From assembly GCA_029945445.1 (NCBI GenBank), contig JAQSCO010000005.1:186001-250000 (forward strand): 64,000 bases of DNA. The letters are read 5' to 3'. This document shows positions 46,050 to 57,041 of the stretch, piece after piece. The notes beneath the pieces were generated by a model that saw only the letters and a list, made by a program, of their open reading frames with translations, searched no databases and was not told the DNA's origin. A program made the translations under genes and the position numbers. Numbering within the stretch: the stretch's first letter is position 1; the number at the start of each line of letters is the position of its first letter. Source of the stretch: Lacunisphaera sp. GTDB lineage: Bacteria > Verrucomicrobiota > Verrucomicrobiia > Opitutales > Opitutaceae.

Positions 46050-46703
46050 ATGTCCAAGATTTTCCCCAAATCCGCCAACGCTCTGCCGCTGCAGATCGTG
46101 ATTTTTCTGACCGTCCTTGGCGGCGTCGCGGCGGCGGGCATCACCTATTACGCCACACCGGCCTACCTGCGCGTTGGCTACCAGCCGGTGCAGCCCGTCC
46201 CGTTTGAGCACAGCCTGCATGCCGGGCAGCTCGGCATCGACTGCCGCTACTGCCACGCCTCGGTGGAGAAGTCCGCCACCTCGAGCGTGCCGGCCGCCCA
46301 GACGTGCATGAACTGCCATAGCATCATCAAGACCCAGAGCCCGCTGCTCGAGGTGGTGCGCCAGAGCTACGCGACCGGCCAGCCGGTGCCGTGGGTCAAG
46401 ATCCACGCCGTGCCGGACTACGTCTACTTCAACCACTCCGTCCACGTGAATCGCGGCGTGAGCTGCGTCGAGTGCCACGGCAAGGTCAATGAAATGACGG
46501 CCGTCTACCACGCCAAGCCCCACAGCATGAGCTGGTGCCTCGACTGCCACCGCGATCCCGCCGCGCGCATCCGCGAGCCGGGTGACGTCTACAATCTCGA
46601 TTCCCAAACGCTCGCCGAGCAGGGCAAGCTGGCCAAGGCCCAGGGCTACATCCACGACTGGAATGTCAAACCGCCCACCAGCTGCTCCGGCTGCCATCGC
46701 TGA
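46050..46703 (+). CDS. actA: Alternative Complex III subunit ActA, pentahaem cytochrome c
   Basis: 217 residues. An N-terminal anchor helix (LPLQIVIFLTVLGGVAAAGI) is followed by five CxxCH haem sites: CRYCH, CMNCH, CVECH, CLDCH and CSGCH. Five haems and one anchor are the hallmark of ActA. The YHAKPHSMSWCLDCHRDP region is typical of this family and of cytochrome c7-like domains. ActA is thought to carry electrons from the iron-sulfur subunit to ActE or to the terminal oxidase at the outer face of the inner membrane. The stop codon overlaps the actB start by one base. Confidence 0.95.
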   Translation: MSKIFPKSANALPLQIVIFLTVLGGVAAAGITYYATPAYLRVGYQPVQPVPFEHSLHAGQLGIDCRYCHASVEKSATSSVPAAQTCMNCHSIIKTQSPLLEVVRQSYATGQPVPWVKIHAVPDYVYFNHSVHVNRGVSCVECHGKVNEMTAVYHAKPHSMSWCLDCHRDPAARIREPGDVYNLDSQTLAEQGKLAKAQGYIHDWNVKPPTSCSGCHR

Positions 46704-49700
46704 TGAAACGCAAATTTGATCATTCCGCTCCCGCGCCGTCCGGATCCGCCGGTCCGAAATACTGGCGCAGCCTCGACGAGCTGGCCGACACGCCCGGCTT
46801 CCGCGAGCACATGGCCCGCGAGTTCCCCGAGGGCGCGTCCAGCATCGAGGGCGTTGATCGCCGGCAGTTCATGAAGCTGATGGCCGCCTCGTTCGCGCTT
46901 GGCGGCCTGGGTCTCGCCGGCTGCCGCCGCCCCGAGAAGCACATCCTGCCCTACGGCAAGTCCGTCGAATACACCGTTCCCGGCCTCCCGCTCTATTTCG
47001 CGACCGCGATGCCGCTGCGCAAGTCCGCCATCCCGCTGCTCGCCGAGACGCACCAGGGCCGCCCGACCAAGCTCGAGGGCAACCCGAGCTACCTGCCGCA
47101 CGGTGGCGCCAGCTCGCTCCTGGCGCAGGCCTCGGTCCTCGACCTTTACGATCCCGAGCGCGCCACCGGTCACACCCAGGGCGGCATGGTGCTGACGAAC
47201 GACGCGGTCAACAAGCTGCTCGCGGACATCAACAAGACCTACGCGGGCCGCGGCGAGGGCCTGGCGTTCCTCGCCGATGAGTCCGCCTCGCCGACCCGCG
47301 CGCGCCTCGTCGCGAAGCTGAAGAGGATTTTCCCGCGCGCCATCTGGGCCGAATACGAGCCGGTGCAGGACGAGCCGCCGGTCGCCGCCGCGCAGGCCGC
47401 GTTCGGCCAGAACGTGAAGCCCGTCTACCGCTTCGCCCAGGCCAAGCGCATCCTCTCGCTTGATGCGGATTTCTTCCACGCCGAGGCCGGTTCGCTCTAT
47501 TACGCCCGCGAGTTTGCCAAGGGCCGCCGCGTCAGGAGCAAGGACGACGAGATGAACCGCCTCTACGTCGCCGAGAGCGGTTTCTCGCTCACCGGCAGCA
47601 TGGCGGACCACCGCCTGCGCATCGCCAGCAGCCAGATCCTTTCGCTCGCGGCGGCGGTCGCGAACAAGGTGCTCGCGACGGAGATTTTCGCCCCGCTGAC
47701 CAAGGGCCTCGAGATCAACCCCGAGTGGATCGCGCAGTGCGCCGAGGATTTGCTCGAGCACTCCGGCGCCAGCCTCGTCGTTGCCGGCGCCCACCAGCCC
47801 GTCGCCGTCCATGTGCTCGCCTACGCGATGAACGCGAAGCTCGGCAATGTCGGCAAGACGATCGACTTTGTGGCGGTTGAACCGGCCGGCGCCTCCACCA
47901 TCCAGGCGCTCGCCACCGCGATGAAGGCTGGTGCGGTCAAGACGCTCTTCGTGCTCGGCGGCAACCCGGCCTACAACGCGCCGGCCGATCTCAATTTTGG
48001 CGTGCTGCTGAAGTCGGTGCCGCAGGTGATCCGCCACGGTTACTCCGTGGACGAGACCGCGGCCCTGGCCGGCGTGAATATCGGCGCGACCCACTATCTC
48101 GAGTCCTGGGGCGATGCCCGCACGGTCGACGGCACCATCGTGCCGGTCCAGCCGATGATCATGCCGCTCTTCAACGGCGTATCCGAGGTCGAGCTGCTCG
48201 CGCGCGTCGCCGGCGACGACAAGGCTGACGCCTACGCCGAGGTGTTCATCACCCTTGGCGGCGACAAGAAGGTCTTCGAGAAATTCCTGCACGACGGCCA
48301 GCTCGAGGGCTCGGCCTACAAGGTGGTTTCCGTGGCGTTCGATCCGCAGCGCGCCGCTTCCGTCTTGGCGCAGAGCCCGGCTTCCACCGCGCTCTCGAAG
48401 GACAACCTCGAGGTTCGCTTCGCCACCGACCACAAGATGGACGACGGCCGCTTCGCCAACAACGGCTGGCTGCAGGAGTGCCCGGATCCGATGACGAAGA
48501 TCTCGTGGGACAACGCGATCCTCGTCAGCCCGCGCCTCGCCAAGGAACTCGGCATTGTCCCCGCCGGCAGCCTGCTGCAGGTCGCGCGCAAGGAAGAAGC
48601 CGAGTTTACCCAAGGCAAAGAGAACGCCCATGTCTTTGAGGTGACCGTTAACGGCCGCACCGTGCGCGGCCCGGTCCACATCCAGCCCGGTCTGGCCAAT
48701 TACACGATCGTCCTCCCGCTCGGCTACGGCCGCAGCCAGTCCGGCCACATCGGCACGGGCACGGGCTTCAACGCCTACGCCATCCGCACCAGCGACGGCC
48801 TGGGCTTCGTGACCGGCGCGACCGTGCGCGACACCGGCACGCGCATGAAGCTCGCGAACACGCAGGAGCACTGGTCGATGGAAGGCCGCGACATCGTGCG
48901 CGAGGCGAACTTCGAGGGTGAATTCGGCTACAAGAAGAATCCCGCGTTCGTGACCGGCATCGGCATGGAAGGCCATTCGCCCGCGGTCTACGGCGACTAC
49001 ACGCCCGAGCAGTTCGCCGCGCTGCCCGCCGCCGAGCGCAGCAAGCTCGCCATCGCCCGCGCCATCGAGACCCCGCGCGGCAACTCGCTCTACGAGACCC
49101 CGAATCTCACCGGCACGCACCAGTGGGGCATGTCGATCGACCTCAACACCTGCATCGGCTGCAACGCCTGCATCGTCGCCTGCCAGGCGGAGAACAACAT
49201 CCCGATCGTGGGCAAGGAACAGGTCATGCGCGGTCGCGAGATGCAGTGGATCCGTCTCGACCGCTATTATTCCGACGGCCAGGCCGACCCCGAGGCCTTC
49301 GGCGCCGAGGGCAACAAGATCCTCCCCGAGGATCCGCAGGTTTCCATGCAGCCGATGACCTGCCAGCACTGCGAACTCGCGCCCTGCGAGACGGTGTGCC
49401 CGGTCAACGCCACGGTGCACGACGACGAGGGCATCAACGTGATGGCCTACAACCGCTGCATCGGCACCCGCTATTGCGCGAACAACTGTCCCTACAAGGT
49501 TCGCCGCTTCAATTTCTTCGACTACAACAAGCGCGCCACCGACGCCCTCTACCTGGGCCCGCTCGGCCACCAGAGCGAGATGCCGGAGCTGGTCAAGATG
49601 GTGAAGAACCCCGACGTCACCGTGCGCATGCGCGGCGTCATGGAGAAGTGCACCTATTGCGTCCAGCGCGTGCAGCAGGCCAAGATCGCGCAGAAGCGCA

Positions 49701-50059
49701 AGGCCGGCTCACCCCTCGAGGGCCTGGCTGACGTCCGCGTTCCCGACGGCACGGTCAAGACCGCCTGCCAGCAGGTGTGCCCGGTCGAGGCCATCGTCTT
49801 CGGCGACATCAAGGACGAGCACAGCGCCGTCTCGAAGGCCAAGGCTCAGGATCGCGACTACGCCGTCCTCGGCTACCTCAACATTCGCCCGCGCACGACC
49901 TACCTCGGCAAGCTGCGCAACCCGAACCCGTCCATGCCCGATTACGCCGCGCTCCCGCTTTCCCGCGTCGAGTATAACAAGAAGAACGGCCACACCGAGC
50001 ACGGCCACGGGGCCGAGAAGCACGGGCACGACGAAAAGAACGGGGGGCATGCCGGATGA
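46703..50059 (+). CDS. actB: Alternative Complex III subunit ActB, iron-sulfur/molybdopterin-like protein
   Basis: 1118 residues. A Tat signal with a lipobox-like end lies at ~52-74 ([20 protein letters not shown] then AGC). The N-terminal ~700 residues are a molybdopterin-oxidoreductase-like fold that in known ActB proteins holds no cofactor. The C-terminal ~300 residues carry ferredoxin-type clusters: [42 protein letters not shown], and CTYC paired with CQQVCPVEA. This fits three 4Fe-4S and one 3Fe-4S clusters. It ends in a His-rich tail ([20 protein letters not shown]). It overlaps actC by four bases. Confidence 0.95.
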
Positions 50060-51489
50060 GCGCGCACTCCGCCGATACTTCCGCGCCCGCCATTCTCGCC
50101 GAGGTCAAGCCGGCCGTCGTGCCGCGCCGCGTGCTCGTCGAGCACGGTCGCGACTTCCACTGGATCACCGAGAAGATCTGCGGCCTCGTCGAGGGTCCGA
50201 CCCCGACCTGGTGGTGGGTGTGCCTCGGCGTCGCGGGTTTCATCGCCTCGTTCACCGTCGCCGGCCTGACCTACCTCGTCTCCACGGGCGTTGGCGTCTG
50301 GGGCCACGCGAACCCGGTCAACTGGGCGTGGGACATCGTCAACTTCGTGTTCTGGATCGGTATCGGCCACGCCGGCACGCTCATTTCCGCCATCCTCTGC
50401 CTGCTGCGCCAGAAGTGGCGCACGTCCATCAATCGCCCGGCCGAGGCCATGACCATCTTCGCGGTCGTGTGCGCGGCGATTTTCCCGGTCTTCCACGTCG
50501 GCCGCATCTGGTTCGCCGTGCTGCCCGGCTACCTGTTCCCGTTCCCGAACTCGAACGGCATCTGGCAGAACTTCCGCTCGCCGCTGGAGTGGGACGTGTT
50601 CGCGGTCTCGACCTACGGCACGGTGTCCGTCCTCTTCTGGTATGTCGGCCTCATCCCCGACCTGGGCACGATGCGCGACCGCTTCACCGCCGCGGGCAAC
50701 GTGGTCAAGGCGCGCATCTACGGCTTCTTCGCCATGGGCTGGCGCGGCTCCAACCGCCACTGGAGCAACTACGAGATGGCCTACCTCATCCTCGCCGGCA
50801 TCGCCACGCCGCTCGTGCTCTCCGTGCACACGATCGTGTCGTTCGACTTCGCCGTGTCGCTCATCCCGGGCTGGCACACGACCATCTTCCCGCCGTATTT
50901 CGTCGCGGGCGCCATCTTCTCCGGCTTCGGCATGGTGCTGACGCTGATGCTGCCGCTGCGCGCCATCTACCGCCTCGAGGACCTGATCACGCAGTATCAC
51001 ATCGACTGCATGTGCAAGATCACCCTGGCGACGGGCACCATGGTGGGCTACGCCTACTCGATGGAGTTCTTCATCGCGTGGTATGGTGCGAACCCCTACG
51101 AGGGTTTCGCGTTCATCAACCGTGCGTTCGGCCACTACGCCTGGGCCTACTGGATCATGATCAGCTGCAACGTCATCACGCCGCAGTTCTTCTGGTTCAA
51201 GAAGGTGCGCGAAAACACCACGCTGGTCTGGATCCTCTGCATCTTCGTGAATGTGGGCATGTGGTTCGAGCGCTTCGTGATCATCGTCACCTCGCTCGCC
51301 CGCGACTTCCTGCCTTCGAGCTGGGGCTATTATTCGCCGTCGGTCGTCGAGATCTTCACGTTCTTCGGGACGTTCGGCGTGTTCTCGTTCCTGTTCCTCC
51401 TTTTCATCCGCTTTGTCCCCATCATGCCGATGTCGGAAATCAAGGCGGTCATCCCCGCGGCCGATCCCCATGGGTCGTCCCACCATTAA
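50056..51489 (+). CDS. actC: Alternative Complex III subunit ActC, NrfD/PsrC-like quinol-binding membrane protein
   Basis: 477 residues with about ten hydrophobic helices, of the NrfD/PsrC superfamily. [20 protein letters not shown] in helix 2-3 and [20 protein letters not shown] are conserved family segments. The first ~45 residues are cytoplasmic. ActC takes electrons from quinol on the outer side and passes them to the clusters of ActB. TAA at 51487-51489 overlaps the AAGGAGG of the next gene. Confidence 0.95.
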
Positions 51490-51499: not shown

Positions 51500-52030
51500 A
51501 TGAAAAAAACCTACGGCCTCATCGCCGCCTTCGACACGGTGCCCGCGCTTTACCACGCCTGCGAGAAGGTCCGCGACGCCGGCTACTCGCAGTGGGACAC
51601 GTTCACGCCGTTCCCGGTCCACGGGCTCGATGCCGCGATGGGCATGCGCCGCTCCAAGGTCCCGCGCTTCTCGCTCGCCGGCGGCATCACCGGCTTCTTC
51701 ACCGGCATGGGCTTCATCGCCTGGCTGGGGTGGGTGGAGTATCCGCTCGTGGTCGGCGGCAAGCCGATGTTCAGCCCGATGTTCGCCTTTCCCGTGGCCT
51801 ACGAGCTGACGATCCTCTTCACGGCCTTCGCGACCATCGGCGGCATGTTCCTGTTGAACCAGCTGCCGATGCACTACCATCCTGTGCTGAAGGCGCCGCA
51901 GTTCGTCCGCGCCATGGACGACCGCTTCTACATTGTGATCGAGGCCAACGACCCGAAATTCAACCCGGCCCAGACCCGCGCCCTGCTCGAGCAGGCCGGT
52001 GGCAAGGACCTCGCCGAACTCGACGAATAA
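51500..52030 (+). CDS. actD: Alternative Complex III subunit ActD (DUF3341)
   Basis: 176 residues starting MKKTYGLIAAFDTVPALYHA, the classic DUF3341 opening. Two helices follow (LAGGITGFFTGMGFIAWLGW and ELTILFTAFATIGGMFLLNQ), with MHYHPVLKAPQFVRAMDDRF after the second. ActD is a small membrane subunit without cofactors that holds ActC and ActF together. It is followed one base later by actE. Confidence 0.94.
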   Translation: MKKTYGLIAAFDTVPALYHACEKVRDAGYSQWDTFTPFPVHGLDAAMGMRRSKVPRFSLAGGITGFFTGMGFIAWLGWVEYPLVVGGKPMFSPMFAFPVAYELTILFTAFATIGGMFLLNQLPMHYHPVLKAPQFVRAMDDRFYIVIEANDPKFNPAQTRALLEQAGGKDLAELDE

Positions 52031-52031
52031 G

Positions 52032-52685
52032 ATGCGTTACGCCTACTACACGCTCGCCTTCGTCGTCGTGCTCCTGATCTCGGTCATGGGCTTCCGCGGC
52101 ATGAAGGCCACCCAGCCGCCGATCGAGGTGTTCCCCGACATGGACCATCAGGCCAAATACAAGCCGCAGGCCGAGTCCAAGTTCTTCGCCGACGCCCGCG
52201 CCGACCGGCCGATGCCCGCCGGCACCGTGCCGTATGGCCGCGGCACCGGCGTCGAGCCCGGCCGCGATTTCCATGACCCCGCCTTCCTCCGCGCCGACGA
52301 CTTCCGCTACGCCGGCAAGGCCGCCGACGGTTCCTTCGCCCGCGGCTTCCCGGTGCCGGTCACCAAGGAACTCCTCCAGCGCGGCCAGGGCCGCTATGCG
52401 ATTTACTGCGCGCCGTGCCATGGTGCGCTCGGCGATGGCAACGGCATCACCAAGCCCTACGGCATGCTCGCGGCGGCGACCTACCACGACGACCGCCTTC
52501 GCGGCATGGCCGAAGGCGAGATCTTCAACACCATCACGAACGGCAAGAACACGATGCTGTCCTATGCGGACAAGCTTTCGCCGGACGACCGCTGGGCCGT
52601 GGTTGCCTACGTGCGCGCCCTGCAGCGCGCCCGCCATGCGACGATCGCCGATGTCCCGGCCGACCAGCGCGGAGGGCTGAAATGA
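52032..52685 (+). CDS. actE: Alternative Complex III subunit ActE, monohaem cytochrome c
   Basis: 217 residues from ATG 52032. An N-terminal anchor (YAYYTLAFVVVLLISVMGFR) precedes MDHQAKYKPQAESKFFADAR, a conserved ActE segment. One haem site, YCAPCHGALGDGNG, and an axial Met in NTMLSYADKLSPDDRWAVVA complete the cytochrome domain. It probably hands electrons to the downstream cytochrome or oxidase. It is one base before actF. Confidence 0.94.
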   Translation: MRYAYYTLAFVVVLLISVMGFRGMKATQPPIEVFPDMDHQAKYKPQAESKFFADARADRPMPAGTVPYGRGTGVEPGRDFHDPAFLRADDFRYAGKAADGSFARGFPVPVTKELLQRGQGRYAIYCAPCHGALGDGNGITKPYGMLAAATYHDDRLRGMAEGEIFNTITNGKNTMLSYADKLSPDDRWAVVAYVRALQRARHATIADVPADQRGGLK

Positions 52686-52686
52686 C

Positions 52687-53952
52687 ATGAGTGCCGCTCC
52701 CCAATCCACCGCCGCGCTCGCGGGCAAATTCCTGATCGCCGGGCTCGCGGGCCTTGCGGTCACCGCGCTCGGCTACTTCGCGACCGGCAACCAGCAGGGC
52801 GTGGCCCTTTCCTACCTGGTGGGCGTGGCCTACTGGACGACCGTGTGCATCGGCATGCTGCTGCTGATTCTCATCCATCACATCACGGACGCCGGCTGGT
52901 CCACGGTCATCCGCCGCCAGTATGAGCACGGGATCTCCGCGTTCCTCTGGCTCGGCGTGCTGTTCATCCCGCTCATCCTCTCGGCCTGGATGAATCCCGG
53001 CCTGGTGTGGCCTTGGATGGACCTCGGGCATGTGCTCCACGGCACGCACACGGTCGGCGAAGACCCGCTCTACCTCAAGAAGGCCGGCTTCCTCAGCCGG
53101 AACATGTTCACCGGGATGACCGTGGCGTTCTTCGCGATCTGGATCTGGCTCTCGGCCCGGCTCCGCAAGGCCTCGTTCGCGCAGGATGGCGACGGCGATG
53201 CGAAGTGGACCTTCATGAACCGCAAGACCGCGGCCTTTGGCATTCCGCTCACCGCCCTCGCCCTCAGCTTCGCGGCGATCTACTGGATGAAGAGCCTCGA
53301 GTATCACTGGTTCTCCACGATGTATGGCGTGTGGTTCTTCGCGAACTGCGTGCGCGCCGGCCTCGCGTTCGCGGTCTTCATCACCTGCTGGCTCTACGCC
53401 CGCGGCGACTACAAGGGCATCTTCAATACCGGCCACTTCCACGCGCTGGTGGCACTGGCCTTCGCCTTCGTGGTGTTCTGGGCCTATGTGACCTTCTCGC
53501 AGTACTTCCTGATCTGGAACGCCAACGTTCCCGAGGAGACTTTCTGGTATAACATCCGCGAGACCGGCGACTGGTGGTATATCGGCATGCTGCTCCTGTT
53601 CGGTCACTTCTTCGTGCCGTTCCTCTCCTGGCTGGTCTACCGCAACAAGGCCGAGCGCAAGCCGGCGGCCATCATCAGCGCCTGGATCGCGATCATCATC
53701 CTCGTCGACCTCTGCTACAACGTCCTCCCGGCCCTGAAGGATACGCACGGGGAGCCGCTGCCGTTCCTATCGATCAACCTGCTTTGGGTGCTCTCCTCCG
53801 TGGTCGGCGTGGGCGGCATCTGCGTCTGGTCCTATTTGAAGAGCTTCCCGACGGCCAAGCTGATCCCGATCCGCGACCCGCGCATCGTGGAATCCCTCAC
53901 GCACCATCCCGCCACCGCGTCGGAGCCCGGCGCCGTGCCGGCCGCCCACTAA
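52687..53952 (+). CDS. actF: Alternative Complex III subunit ActF, membrane protein
   Basis: 421 residues with about ten hydrophobic helices, a shorter relative of ActC. Recognised segments are SYLVGVAYWTTVCIGMLLLI, EHGISAFLWLGVLFIPLILS, and TFSQYFLIWNANVPEETFWY. ActF carries no cofactor and is thought to form part of a proton path. The C-terminus is alanine-rich and soluble. A 3-bp gap separates it from the next small gene. Confidence 0.94.
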   Translation: MSAAPQSTAALAGKFLIAGLAGLAVTALGYFATGNQQGVALSYLVGVAYWTTVCIGMLLLILIHHITDAGWSTVIRRQYEHGISAFLWLGVLFIPLILSAWMNPGLVWPWMDLGHVLHGTHTVGEDPLYLKKAGFLSRNMFTGMTVAFFAIWIWLSARLRKASFAQDGDGDAKWTFMNRKTAAFGIPLTALALSFAAIYWMKSLEYHWFSTMYGVWFFANCVRAGLAFAVFITCWLYARGDYKGIFNTGHFHALVALAFAFVVFWAYVTFSQYFLIWNANVPEETFWYNIRETGDWWYIGMLLLFGHFFVPFLSWLVYRNKAERKPAAIISAWIAIIILVDLCYNVLPALKDTHGEPLPFLSINLLWVLSSVVGVGGICVWSYLKSFPTAKLIPIRDPRIVESLTHHPATASEPGAVPAAH

Positions 53953-53955
53953 GCC

Positions 53956-54264
53956 ATGAGCGACTCCTCCTCCCATTTTTCCTTCCCGCACCGCACGCCC
54001 GTGTTCACCACGATCCTCGTGCTCGTGTGCATGGCCGTGTTCGGCTGGCTCGCGCGGAAGGTCTACGCGCCGCACGCCCGCGCCGTCGACAAGATCGAGG
54101 GCGTGCGCACCCCCGCCGACCGCGCGGCCCTGCTGGCGGAGCACCGGACCAAGGCACACGCCGAAGCCACCACCTACGGCTGGGTGGACCAGAAGGCCGG
54201 CGTTGTCCGCCTGCCGCTCGACCGCGCCGTGGAGCTGACCGTGCAGGAGCACGCCCAAAAGTGA
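53956..54264 (+). CDS. Small single-helix membrane protein between ActF and CcoN-like subunit
   Basis: 102 residues. A helix (FTTILVLVCMAVFGWLARKV) is followed by a polar part of ~65 residues ending YGWVDQKAGVVRLPLDRAVE LTVQ. The last motif, G-W-V-D-x-x-x-G-x-x-x-x-P-x-D-R-A, recurs from memory in short proteins next to bacterial respiratory genes. There are no Cys and no haem site. Position suggests an accessory subunit bridging ActF and the CcoN-like protein. I cannot name the family. Confidence 0.75.
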   Translation: MSDSSSHFSFPHRTPVFTTILVLVCMAVFGWLARKVYAPHARAVDKIEGVRTPADRAALLAEHRTKAHAEATTYGWVDQKAGVVRLPLDRAVELTVQEHAQK

Positions 54265-54271
54265 CCCGCCG

Positions 54272-55708
54272 ATGAATTCTCCCGATAACAACCGCACGGA
54301 GCAGATGGAGATCGACGCCTCCGCCAAGTGGCCGGTGCTCTTCATTTTCGCCCACGCGCTGGCCTGGCTCATCGTCGGCGGCGCCCTCGAGCTGGCGGCG
54401 GCGATCCAGCTGCACACGCCCACCTTCCTCGCGACCTGCGAGTGGTTCACCCACGGCCGGCTCGCGCCCGCCGCGTCGAACGCCCTCGTCTACGGCTGGG
54501 GCTTCAACGCCGCCTTCGCCTTCGGCCTCTGGCTGATGGCGCGCCTGTCCGCCACGACGCTCCGCCACGGCGGCTGGCTCTTCGTGGCCGCCAAGTTCTG
54601 GAACGTGGGCGTCTTCCTCGGCGTGGCCGGCATCCTCGCCGGTTACTCGACCTCCTTCGAGCTGCTCGAGATGCCGCGCTTCGTCACCTTCCTCCTGCTC
54701 GCGGCCTACGCGCTCATCGGCGTGTGGGGCGTCACGACCTTCAGCATCCGCAACACCGAGAATGTCTTCGCCTCGCAGTGGTATCTCTTCGGCGCGGCGT
54801 TCTGGTTTCCGTGGCTCTACGCCATCGCACAGATCATGCTCTTCCGCGCCCCGGTGCGCGGCGTGATGCAGCCGGTCGTCAACGCGTGGTATGTGCACGG
54901 CCTCTACGGCCTGTGGTTCGTGCCGGTCGCGCTGGCCGCCGCGTATTACCTCCTGCCCAAGATCCTCGGCAAACCCATCTCGAACTACTACCTCGCGCCC
55001 CTCGCGTTCTGGTGGCTCGCGATCACGACCGCCTTCGCCGGCGGCAGCCGGCTGATCGGCGCCCCGGTGCCGGTCTGGATCCCGACGCTCGGCACCGTCG
55101 CCAACTTCATGCTCGTGGTCCCGGTCGTGCTCATCGGGCTCAACCTCTTCGGCACGCTCGCCGGTCGCTACGCCTCGCTGAAGGGCAGTGTCTCGCTGCG
55201 CTTCGTCTTCATCAGCCTGCTGGCCTTCGTGCTGGCGTCGGCGCTCAACTTCGCCTTTTCGCTGCGGGACGTCGCCGAGGTCGTGCAGTTCACGCTGCTC
55301 TCCAGCCTGCGCGACTGGCTGATCTTCTACGCCTGCTTCTCGACCGCCATGTTCGGCGCCGCCTACTTCATGCTGCCGCGCCTGACCGGCCTCGAGTGGC
55401 GCTCGCCCGCGCTGGTGAAGATCCACCTCGGCGCGACGGTGCTCGGCACCGGCCTGCTCACGCTCGGCCTGGCCTGGGGCGGCTGGACGCAGGGCCACCT
55501 GCTCGCCGATCCCGCCGTGGGCTTCACCGACCTCTCCAAGGCCATGACCTTCTGGTTCACCGTCCGCACCGGCGGTCTGGCGCTCCTGCTCCTCGGCCAC
55601 GTGGCCTTCCTCGTCAACTTCATCTGGATCGCCTGGCCTTTCGATTCCCGCCACACCGCGCCGGCGCAGATCAATCCTCCGCCCGCCCTGGAGGTGCTCA
55701 AGGCATGA
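54272..55708 (+). CDS. CcoN-like protein lacking haem and copper ligands (pseudo-cbb3 subunit I)
   Basis: 478 residues and about twelve helices, the size of CcoN (~474). Three stretches align with cbb3 subunit I: HGRLAPAASNALVYGWGFNA, NAWYVHGLYGLWFVPVALAA with YYLLPKILGKP, and LRDWLIFYACFSTAMFG. At the ligand positions only His209 (one CuB ligand) is kept. The low-spin haem His of G-R-L-x-P-x-H-T-N is Ala68. The CuB His pair of A-G-P-H-H is Ser259-Arg260. The two haem His of I-G-H-V-H are Tyr353 and Cys355, and the cross-linked Tyr is Thr253. The protein should bind no haem and no CuB. The frame is intact and overlaps the next gene (ATGA), so it is not a decaying gene. Confidence 0.85.
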   Translation: MNSPDNNRTEQMEIDASAKWPVLFIFAHALAWLIVGGALELAAAIQLHTPTFLATCEWFTHGRLAPAASNALVYGWGFNAAFAFGLWLMARLSATTLRHGGWLFVAAKFWNVGVFLGVAGILAGYSTSFELLEMPRFVTFLLLAAYALIGVWGVTTFSIRNTENVFASQWYLFGAAFWFPWLYAIAQIMLFRAPVRGVMQPVVNAWYVHGLYGLWFVPVALAAAYYLLPKILGKPISNYYLAPLAFWWLAITTAFAGGSRLIGAPVPVWIPTLGTVANFMLVVPVVLIGLNLFGTLAGRYASLKGSVSLRFVFISLLAFVLASALNFAFSLRDVAEVVQFTLLSSLRDWLIFYACFSTAMFGAAYFMLPRLTGLEWRSPALVKIHLGATVLGTGLLTLGLAWGGWTQGHLLADPAVGFTDLSKAMTFWFTVRTGGLALLLLGHVAFLVNFIWIAWPFDSRHTAPAQINPPPALEVLKA

Positions 55709-56391
55709 AAAACGGTCTCGCCCTCTTCCTCGGCGTCTTCGCCGCCCTCGCGCTCTCCTGGGCCGGCCTGCTGCTGACCGCCCAGCGCCAGTTCGGCAGC
55801 CTCGGCCAGTTCAAGGATCCGGCCGACGACATGCTCTACCCGCAGCCGATGTCGGGCCTGGCCAACCAGGGCCGCCTCGTCTACCAGGATCTCGGCTGCG
55901 TCAGCTGCCACACGCAGCAGGTGCGCCGCGAGGGCTTTGGCACGGATCTCGCCCGCAAGTGGGGCGCGCGCGGCGGCTATGCCCGCGACTACATCCGCGA
56001 CCAGACCGTGCTGATCGGCGCCAGCCGCCTCGGCCCCGACCTGCGCAACGCCGGCAACACCGAGCTGCACCCCTACGCTGACGCCGATTATTTCTACAGC
56101 CTGCTCTACGCCCCGGCGTCCGGCGCCCCGGGCTCGATGATGCCCGCCCACGCGTTCCTCTTTGACATCCACCCGGTCGCCGGCCGCCAGCCCTCCGAGC
56201 ACGCGCTCAAGCTCTCGTCGAAGTTCGCCCCGGGCCCCGGCCTCGAGGTCGTGCCGACCGCCCGCGCGCAGGCCCTGGTCGCCTACCTGATGAGCCTGAA
56301 GGACACCTACGACTATCCCATCGAGCGCACCCGCAACGCGGCCGCCGCCGAGGAAAAGCACGGGGAAAAGCCCAAGGAGGGCGGTAAATAA
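55705..56391 (+). CDS. ccoO: CcoO-like membrane-anchored monohaem cytochrome c
   Basis: 228 residues. An N-terminal anchor (LALFLGVFAALALSWAGLLL) is followed by MSGLANQGRLVYQDLGCVSC and then H-T-Q-Q-V, the CcoO-type haem site, and the axial Met in APGSMMPAHAFLF. SRLGPDLRNAGNTELHP matches the G-P-D-L block of CcoO. The haem site is intact, unlike those of the preceding subunit. CcoO normally feeds electrons to CcoN; here its partner has no acceptor haem, so it may relay electrons between ActE or ActA and a separate oxidase. The stop overlaps the next start by one base. Confidence 0.88.
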   Translation: MKNGLALFLGVFAALALSWAGLLLTAQRQFGSLGQFKDPADDMLYPQPMSGLANQGRLVYQDLGCVSCHTQQVRREGFGTDLARKWGARGGYARDYIRDQTVLIGASRLGPDLRNAGNTELHPYADADYFYSLLYAPASGAPGSMMPAHAFLFDIHPVAGRQPSEHALKLSSKFAPGPGLEVVPTARAQALVAYLMSLKDTYDYPIERTRNAAAAEEKHGEKPKEGGK

Positions 56392-57041
56392 TGAGCGCCG
56401 AACCCGACAAGAATTTCCGCCTTGAGCAGGCCTGTGCGACCGACGACAGCATCCAGCAGGTCCACGCCCAGCTGCAGAAGACCAAGCCCGAGAAGACGGG
56501 CGGTTATCCGCTGCTGCCGCTTGGCATCCTCGGCCTGATGTGCGCCGCCGTCTTCTTCGGCTCGATCTACCTCGCGCACAATTCCATCCGGTTCGACCCG
56601 CTCGTCTACAACGAGCATGCCAGCCGCGATAAACCCGGCGCGCAGAAGATCGTCCCGCTCACCCGTGCCCAGCTCGGCAAGAAGGTTTTCGACGTCACCT
56701 GTATCGCCTGCCATCAGGCCAACGGTCTCGGTCTCCCCGGCCAGTATCCGCCGCTCGCCGGCTCAGAGTGGGCCACCGGCAGCGAGGAGCGCGTCATCCG
56801 CATCGTGCTCCACGGCCTCAACGGCCCGATCAAGGTCGAGGGCAAGGATTTCAATAACGTCATGGCCCCGCTCGGCGAGGCGCTCAAGGACGAGCAGATT
56901 GCCAACGCCATTTCCTACGTCCGGGCCAGCTGGGGCAACAACGCCCCCGAGGTCACGCCCGAGGCCGTCGCCAAGGTCCGCGCCGAGACGGCCGGCCGCA
57001 AGACCTACTGGACCGCCGCCGAGCTCGAGCAGGTCAAGTAA
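56391..57041 (+). CDS. Membrane-anchored monohaem cytochrome c (CcoP position)
   Basis: 216 residues. A cytoplasmic start of ~40 residues precedes one helix (LLPLGILGLMCAAVFFGSIY), then a single class I cytochrome domain with VTCIACHQANGLGLPGQYPP and axial Met in FNNVMAPLGEALKDEQIANA. CcoP has two haem domains; this has one. A good AAGGAGG lies at 56374-56380, 10 bases before ATG 56391. The PPLAGSEWATG segment is common in caa3 and nitric-oxide-reductase cytochromes. It is the last gene of the operon, followed by a hairpin at 57069-57092. Confidence 0.87.
   Translation: MSAEPDKNFRLEQACATDDSIQQVHAQLQKTKPEKTGGYPLLPLGILGLMCAAVFFGSIYLAHNSIRFDPLVYNEHASRDKPGAQKIVPLTRAQLGKKVFDVTCIACHQANGLGLPGQYPPLAGSEWATGSEERVIRIVLHGLNGPIKVEGKDFNNVMAPLGEALKDEQIANAISYVRASWGNNAPEVTPEAVAKVRAETAGRKTYWTAAELEQVK

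Follow-up and report, generated by a model that had tools for sequence, protein, structure and literature searches.

The locus studied here raises the question of what a cytochrome oxidase subunit I can contribute to an Alternative Complex III (ACIII) operon once the residues that would make it an oxidase are gone. The window, a stretch of 64,000 nucleotides from a Lacunisphaera sp. contig (JAQSCO010000005.1), carries actA–actF in order, on the forward strand, as are all the genes named here. The operon begins with actA (46050–46703), encoding a pentahaem cytochrome c with a QrcA-like match and five CxxCH motifs in its translation, and actB (46703–50059), the product of which is molybdopterin-oxidoreductase-like with Fe-S domains and matches TIGR04519, QrcB and QrcC. 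These are followed by actC (50056–51489), coding for an NrfD-like membrane subunit with a DsrP match and a position conserved in relatives, actD (51500–52030; PF11821 ActD, 204 bits), with its start placed at an ATG within the listed ORF, and actE (52032–52685), a monohaem cytochrome c gene recognised by its cytochrome c domains and conserved position, with an uncertain start (the listed ORF runs from 51999). The last of the six, actF (52687–53952), matches no Pfam family and was named by its conserved place next to actE and by its homologues in relatives. Behind it lie orf102 (53956–54264), which encodes a small protein of an unnamed family without Pfam or NCBIfam match, the gene in question (54272–55708), a ccoO-like gene for a monohaem cytochrome c (55705–56391; PF02433 FixO, 51.8 bits) and a ccoP-like cytochrome c gene (56391–57041; PF00034 and PF13442). 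Both latter products retain CxxCH, as do nearly all of their counterparts in relatives.

The gene at 54272–55708 is an open frame of 478 amino acids, and its stop codon overlaps the start of ccoO in an ATGA at 55705–55708, just as the earlier note on this DNA had described. Its product matches the Pfam profile PF00115 (COX1) with 121.5 bits against a cut-off of 34.8, and the solved CcoN chains align with it over most of its length (residues 28–445; E 4.5e-20 and 1.3e-18). An AlphaFold model built on an alignment of 46 rows (pLDDT 88.7, pTM 0.90) has the COX1/CcoN fold: its closest PDB structures are CcoN chains (TM 0.88), and it superposes on 3mk7 with Z 50.2 and an rmsd of 1.9 Å over 445 residues. 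The gene is thus a homologue of subunit I of the cbb3 oxidase, and the proposed length-wide likeness to CcoN holds for sequence and predicted structure. With CcoN of the cbb3 (C-type) oxidases the protein has the fold, the length and the CcoO/CcoP partners in common; it differs in its low score with the ccoN profile TIGR00780 (95.1 bits, below the curated cut-off of 583.15), in being encoded with ACIII, and in its ligands.

We take residues H60, H207, H257, H258, H345 and H347 of Pseudomonas stutzeri CcoN to be the ligands of haem b, haem b3 and CuB, and Y251 of helix VII to be the catalytic tyrosine. In the alignment, the columns of H60, H207, Y251, H257 and H258 are occupied in the window protein by Ala68, His209, Thr253, Ser259 and Arg260, which bears out the replacement of the tyrosine by Thr253 that had been proposed. 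The helix X columns of H345 and H347 hold Arg347 and Trp349, as follows from a gap-free alignment with the intact homologues in related operons. The earlier note was therefore right in counting five of six histidines as replaced and in naming Ala68, Ser259 and Arg260, and was mistaken in Tyr353 and Cys355, which lie six residues beyond the ligand columns, where intact proteins have Tyr and Phe. Only one of the six histidines is present; His209 is indeed the sole survivor in the window protein, but not a general one, since of 71 ligand-deficient operon proteins 18% have His in that column. As the protein lacks the catalytic tyrosine and the ligands that both b haems and CuB would need, it cannot reduce O2 in the known way. 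A role as a proton-path subunit, also suggested, finds no support: apart from the loss of Tyr251, the polar columns S240 and T215 (P. stutzeri numbering), presumably proton-path positions, are mostly changed in deficient proteins, with Ser in 15% and Thr in 23%, respectively.

Homologues next to actF were collected from other genomes. In the phylum sample (387 genomes of Verrucomicrobiota), 126 genomes matched alignment A1, and an operon-type gene was read in 93 of them, 28 with all ligands (HHYHHHH) and 65 ligand-deficient; the remaining matches, where listed, were canonical CcoN or CcoNO or weak, and the weak class-level ones in G113 and G395 lie outside this reading. For 83 of these 93 genomes the DNA on both sides of the gene was available, with actF before it and ccoO after it; in the other ten the neighbourhood was not fetched or ran off the contig. 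Within the narrower set of relatives, 35 of 38 genomes (the window's own counted) matched the protein, some of them, such as G001, through canonical CcoNO only; a named collection, of which the best 80 of 575 loci were used, bears labels including Opitutus, Lacunisphaera, Didemnitutus, Geminisphaera, Coraliomargarita and Cerasicoccus. Altogether 121 distinct operons were obtained, and 117 entered the trees (46 intact and 71 deficient), leaving out L021, L035 and L053, with truncated ActC or ActF, and L194. The expected gene order was found in 113 of the 117, and an extra cytochrome c gene preceded ccoN in the other four. Deficient versions thus sit at one operon position in many lineages, with the fold and the CcoO/CcoP partners retained. 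Intact relatives with all six His and the Tyr occur at the identical place in the same family and order as the window. They are what the earlier note had said would count against its reading, and the notion of a uniformly empty family has to be given up; the neighbourhood on which it had based a new type of Complex III subunit (ActA–F, CcoO and a cytochrome) stands, but the emptiness of that subunit is not invariant.

The small gene between actF and ccoN accompanies both kinds of operon (95 of 117; 39/46 intact, 56/71 deficient), with a motif of the type YGWVDQ..GVVRLP.DRA in 53, and its product is possibly a linker subunit of ACIII. At L174, L175, L176 and L177 its place is taken by the extra cytochrome c gene.

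The extent of ligand loss varies. Among the 71 deficient proteins, 24 retain none of the six His, 41 retain one and six retain two to five. Two genes from Opitutaceae MAGs, with the patterns HHQRHHH (L102) and HHSARHH (L071), have kept the haem ligands and lost Tyr251 and the CuB histidines, and may be early intermediates of ligand loss. Proteins with HNSQRYH (L154, L155 and L113) or HNAQRYH (L099) have kept the low-spin pair H60/H347 only, those for b3 and CuB being gone, and are candidates for a one-haem relay. As a control, fused CcoNO encoded elsewhere in 20 of these genomes, hand-picked from the listed matches, was intact in all 20.

The haem-binding motifs of the partner proteins have fared otherwise. 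CxxCH of CcoO is present in 71/71 deficient and 45/46 intact operons when the whole frame is read (69/71 and 45/46 in the aligned part), and that of CcoP in 67/71 and 43/46. Further oxidases are at hand: another COX1 match was found in each of the 65 deficient genomes (40/40, 5/5 and 20/20; ligands read for samples only) and in 26 of the 28 intact ones, G034 and G177 having the intact operon gene only, which is a weak contrast. In the window genome, two further COX1 matches were detected, namely a gene of what we take to be CoxA type (the oxidase type names used here are our own assignments) in a coxB-A-C-like set on another contig than the ACIII operon, and a fused CcoNO of 769 amino acids (L002) with every ligand present. 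A strong CoxA-type match follows the gene on the same strand, at a distance of up to about 3 kb, in 26/65 deficient versus 1/28 intact genomes, as judged by eye, while 39/65 deficient genomes have no adjacent CoxA. Three deficient clusters were read further; all three contain a COX2 gene, and both of those searched for COX3 (L231 and L232) contain it.

We think it rather probable that an ancestral operon encoded ACIII together with a cbb3 oxidase, and that the core of the latter was converted, on repeated occasions, into a pseudo-oxidase keeping CcoO and CcoP on ACIII, presumably as an electron bridge. The ligands would have been lost several times, as a derived trait, and the CcoN-like protein would have stayed as a membrane scaffold keeping CcoO and CcoP against ACIII, on which its docking is plausible. 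Electrons from menaquinol could then pass through ActB, ActA and ActE to the c haems of CcoO and CcoP, and from there to another oxidase (aa3 or a separate CcoNO) or to a mobile cytochrome, the oxygen chemistry taking place at that other oxidase. The location of the window genome's aa3 gene on a different contig and the 39 deficient genomes without a neighbouring CoxA speak against this picture. If so, the operon points to an outlet for ACIII electrons via CcoO/CcoP. The role retained by the deficient protein is probably that of a scaffold or of an electron bridge. That it is purely an assembly scaffold, which lends stability to ACIII or anchors the two cytochromes, with CcoO and CcoP handing electrons to no dedicated partner, is unlikely, though it fits the pattern of conservation: out of 172 columns conserved to at least 90% in intact proteins, 79 are still conserved to at least 70% in deficient ones and 38 fall below 30%, all seven ligand and Tyr columns being among these 38, so that scaffold columns are retained and pocket columns gone. 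It would also agree with the change of the CcoO column Met146 (window numbering; we assume a role in haem ligation), which holds Met in 45/46 intact operons and 49/71 deficient ones and is thus altered in 22 of the latter, so some CcoO haems or their ligation may be altered there. Against a pure scaffold stand the nearly constant CxxCH motifs of CcoO and CcoP and the adjacent CoxA in 26 of the 65 deficient genomes. The residues found in the altered Met146 column include Cys in ten operons and His in four.

How often the ligands were lost depends on the gene from which the tree is built. We infer that the ligand-empty state is derived, since regaining seven residues would be implausible, so the direction is probably loss rather than gain. 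On the ActC+ActF tree, 18 changes between intact and deficient states were counted, 13 of them forced by starred branches, against a mean of 36.4 after shuffling, and a single deficient clade was rejected (p-AU 1.45e-9; p 4.25e-5 for a smaller set of nine rows). Single ACIII genes gave 15–20 changes, CcoO 9, CcoP 12 and CcoN 4. In the CcoN tree, 44 deficient genes are joined on one branch (SH-aLRT 99), which leaves the number of losses uncertain. An alternative is that losses were few and old and that the deficient gene, perhaps together with ccoO and ccoP, passed from one ACIII operon to another through recombination or horizontal transfer. It would account for that branch and for the counts from CcoO and CcoP, which are lower than those from the ACIII genes, and also for the conflict with ACIII splits that 10 of the 40 CcoN splits supported at 0.95 show among deficient genes. 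We nevertheless consider it quite unlikely. When the 18 deficient clades were placed singly among the intact genes, 13 joined the same broad group as their own ACIII genes, many with low support; the intact groups were set by hand, and five clades fell outside the expected group. Intact CcoN does not conflict with ActC+ActF at 0.95, and at 0.9 only in 2 of 26 splits. The tree program moreover warned that long deficient branches meet, and when only the less conserved CcoN columns were used, 7 and 11 changes were obtained instead of 4. The branch of 44 deficient genes may thus be due to long-branch attraction, and we read the trees as repeated ligand loss combined with such attraction in CcoN. 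The losses number at least four on any tree computed and probably more than ten.

Another explanation would let the emptied pocket take up a new ligand, for instance a haem bound in another way, a quinone or some regulatory molecule. The replacements vary rather little in the window genus and its neighbours (AH[TS][SA]RRW), and the few clades with HNSQRYH have kept the low-spin haem pair, both of which would suit a pocket with a new occupant; but 50 different seven-residue patterns in the 71 deficient operons argue against one common ligand, and we regard this explanation as very unlikely. The deficient ccoN-like genes are under purifying selection. Their median NG86 dN/dS is 0.157 over the aligned parts of 16 pairs, compared with 0.040 for intact CcoN (10 of 12 pairs, the other two having no defined CcoN dS), the 28 pairs having been chosen by hand and several dS values being saturated. 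The corresponding medians for deficient versus intact operons are 0.167 and 0.048 in CcoO and 0.076 and 0.026 in ActC, and the ratio of CcoN to ActC is 2.2 in the former and 1.3 in the latter; since ActC is raised too, the rise in deficient CcoN is partly common to the ACIII genes. Neutral decay of a dead gene on its way to being lost, to which the roughly fourfold higher dN/dS of deficient CcoN might point, deserves practically no credence, being rejected by values of 0.057–0.299 in 16/16 deficient pairs and opposed by the absence of internal stops from the operon-type matches listed and by the retention of the gene at a constant position across many genomes, so that the earlier description of the frame as selected, not decayed, holds.

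The window protein lacks its catalytic residues and retains fold and purifying selection, as a pseudoenzyme does, and if our reading is correct it represents a clear pseudoenzyme of the O2-reducing haem-copper superfamily. To our knowledge, no pseudoenzyme of a haem-copper oxidase subunit I has been described, nor do we know of an intact-to-empty series for domain B1 of ActB, which is likewise an emptied oxidoreductase-like part but belongs to another enzyme family. That domain is described as molybdopterin-enzyme-like, without prosthetic groups and retained in the complex (PMC5928083), and the same pattern of catalytic residues gone with fold and gene maintained is reported for pseudoenzymes generally (PMC5106787, PMC10211241). 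The intact-to-empty series at one operon position is a natural one and would allow what CcoN does as a scaffold to be told apart from what it does in catalysis. Clusters and supercomplexes in which ACIII is followed by oxidase genes are known from Rhodothermus (caa3), Flavobacterium (aa3) and the ACIII–cbb3 pairing (PMC5928083, PMC8498564); the operon of the window type differs in that the adjacent core has no active site and, in some clades, has ACIII on one side and a CoxA-type gene on the other.

The pairing itself is already in print: according to a 2021 review, ACIII genes directly adjoin cbb3 oxidase genes in verrucomicrobial methanotrophs and Opitutaceae, and cbb3 is counted there as one of three Complexes IV of the methanotrophs (PMC8498564). 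No published account of such a loss in CcoN was found in the open-licence literature. The genome paper on strain Kam1 ties high oxygen affinity to the methanotroph cbb3 (PMC6688271). Five genomes of family f21, which by pmoA and class would be a verrucomicrobial methanotroph family, carry pmoA, and their operon-type CcoN homologue is deficient in all five (ADAAHQT or SESSHFV), with ACIII genes beside it in the four for which the neighbourhood was fetched. At L232 (genome G078), L195–L198 and L263 (pmoA genomes), a CoxA-type gene follows the deficient homologue within 3 kb. The other COX1 matches of the pmoA genomes are, by motif, A-type, B-type or NOR-like; two of five NOR-like proteins were compared with NCBIfam, and neither reached the ccoN cut-off (no match, and 37.7 against 583 bits). 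A complete cbb3 was not seen in these five genomes. To judge from its residues, what pmoA-bearing genomes encode next to ACIII, and what has been called a cbb3 oxidase, is a ligand-deficient protein of the window type. Where high-affinity cbb3 respiration has been claimed from the genes of Verrucomicrobiota, probably those of methanotrophs included, the ligands thus call for a check. More tentatively, and with somewhat less than an even chance of being right, we propose that the core turned into a cofactor-poor bridge within ACIII/pseudo-cbb3/aa3 assemblies at least a dozen times in one class, that the 'cbb3' of the methanotrophs is no oxidase, and that possible intermediates either part first with the Tyr and the CuB ligands or have the low-spin haem pair left as their only ligands. 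The intact operon was also detected on contigs labelled Planctomycetota and Omnitrophota (L114 and L072), perhaps through transfer or mis-binning.
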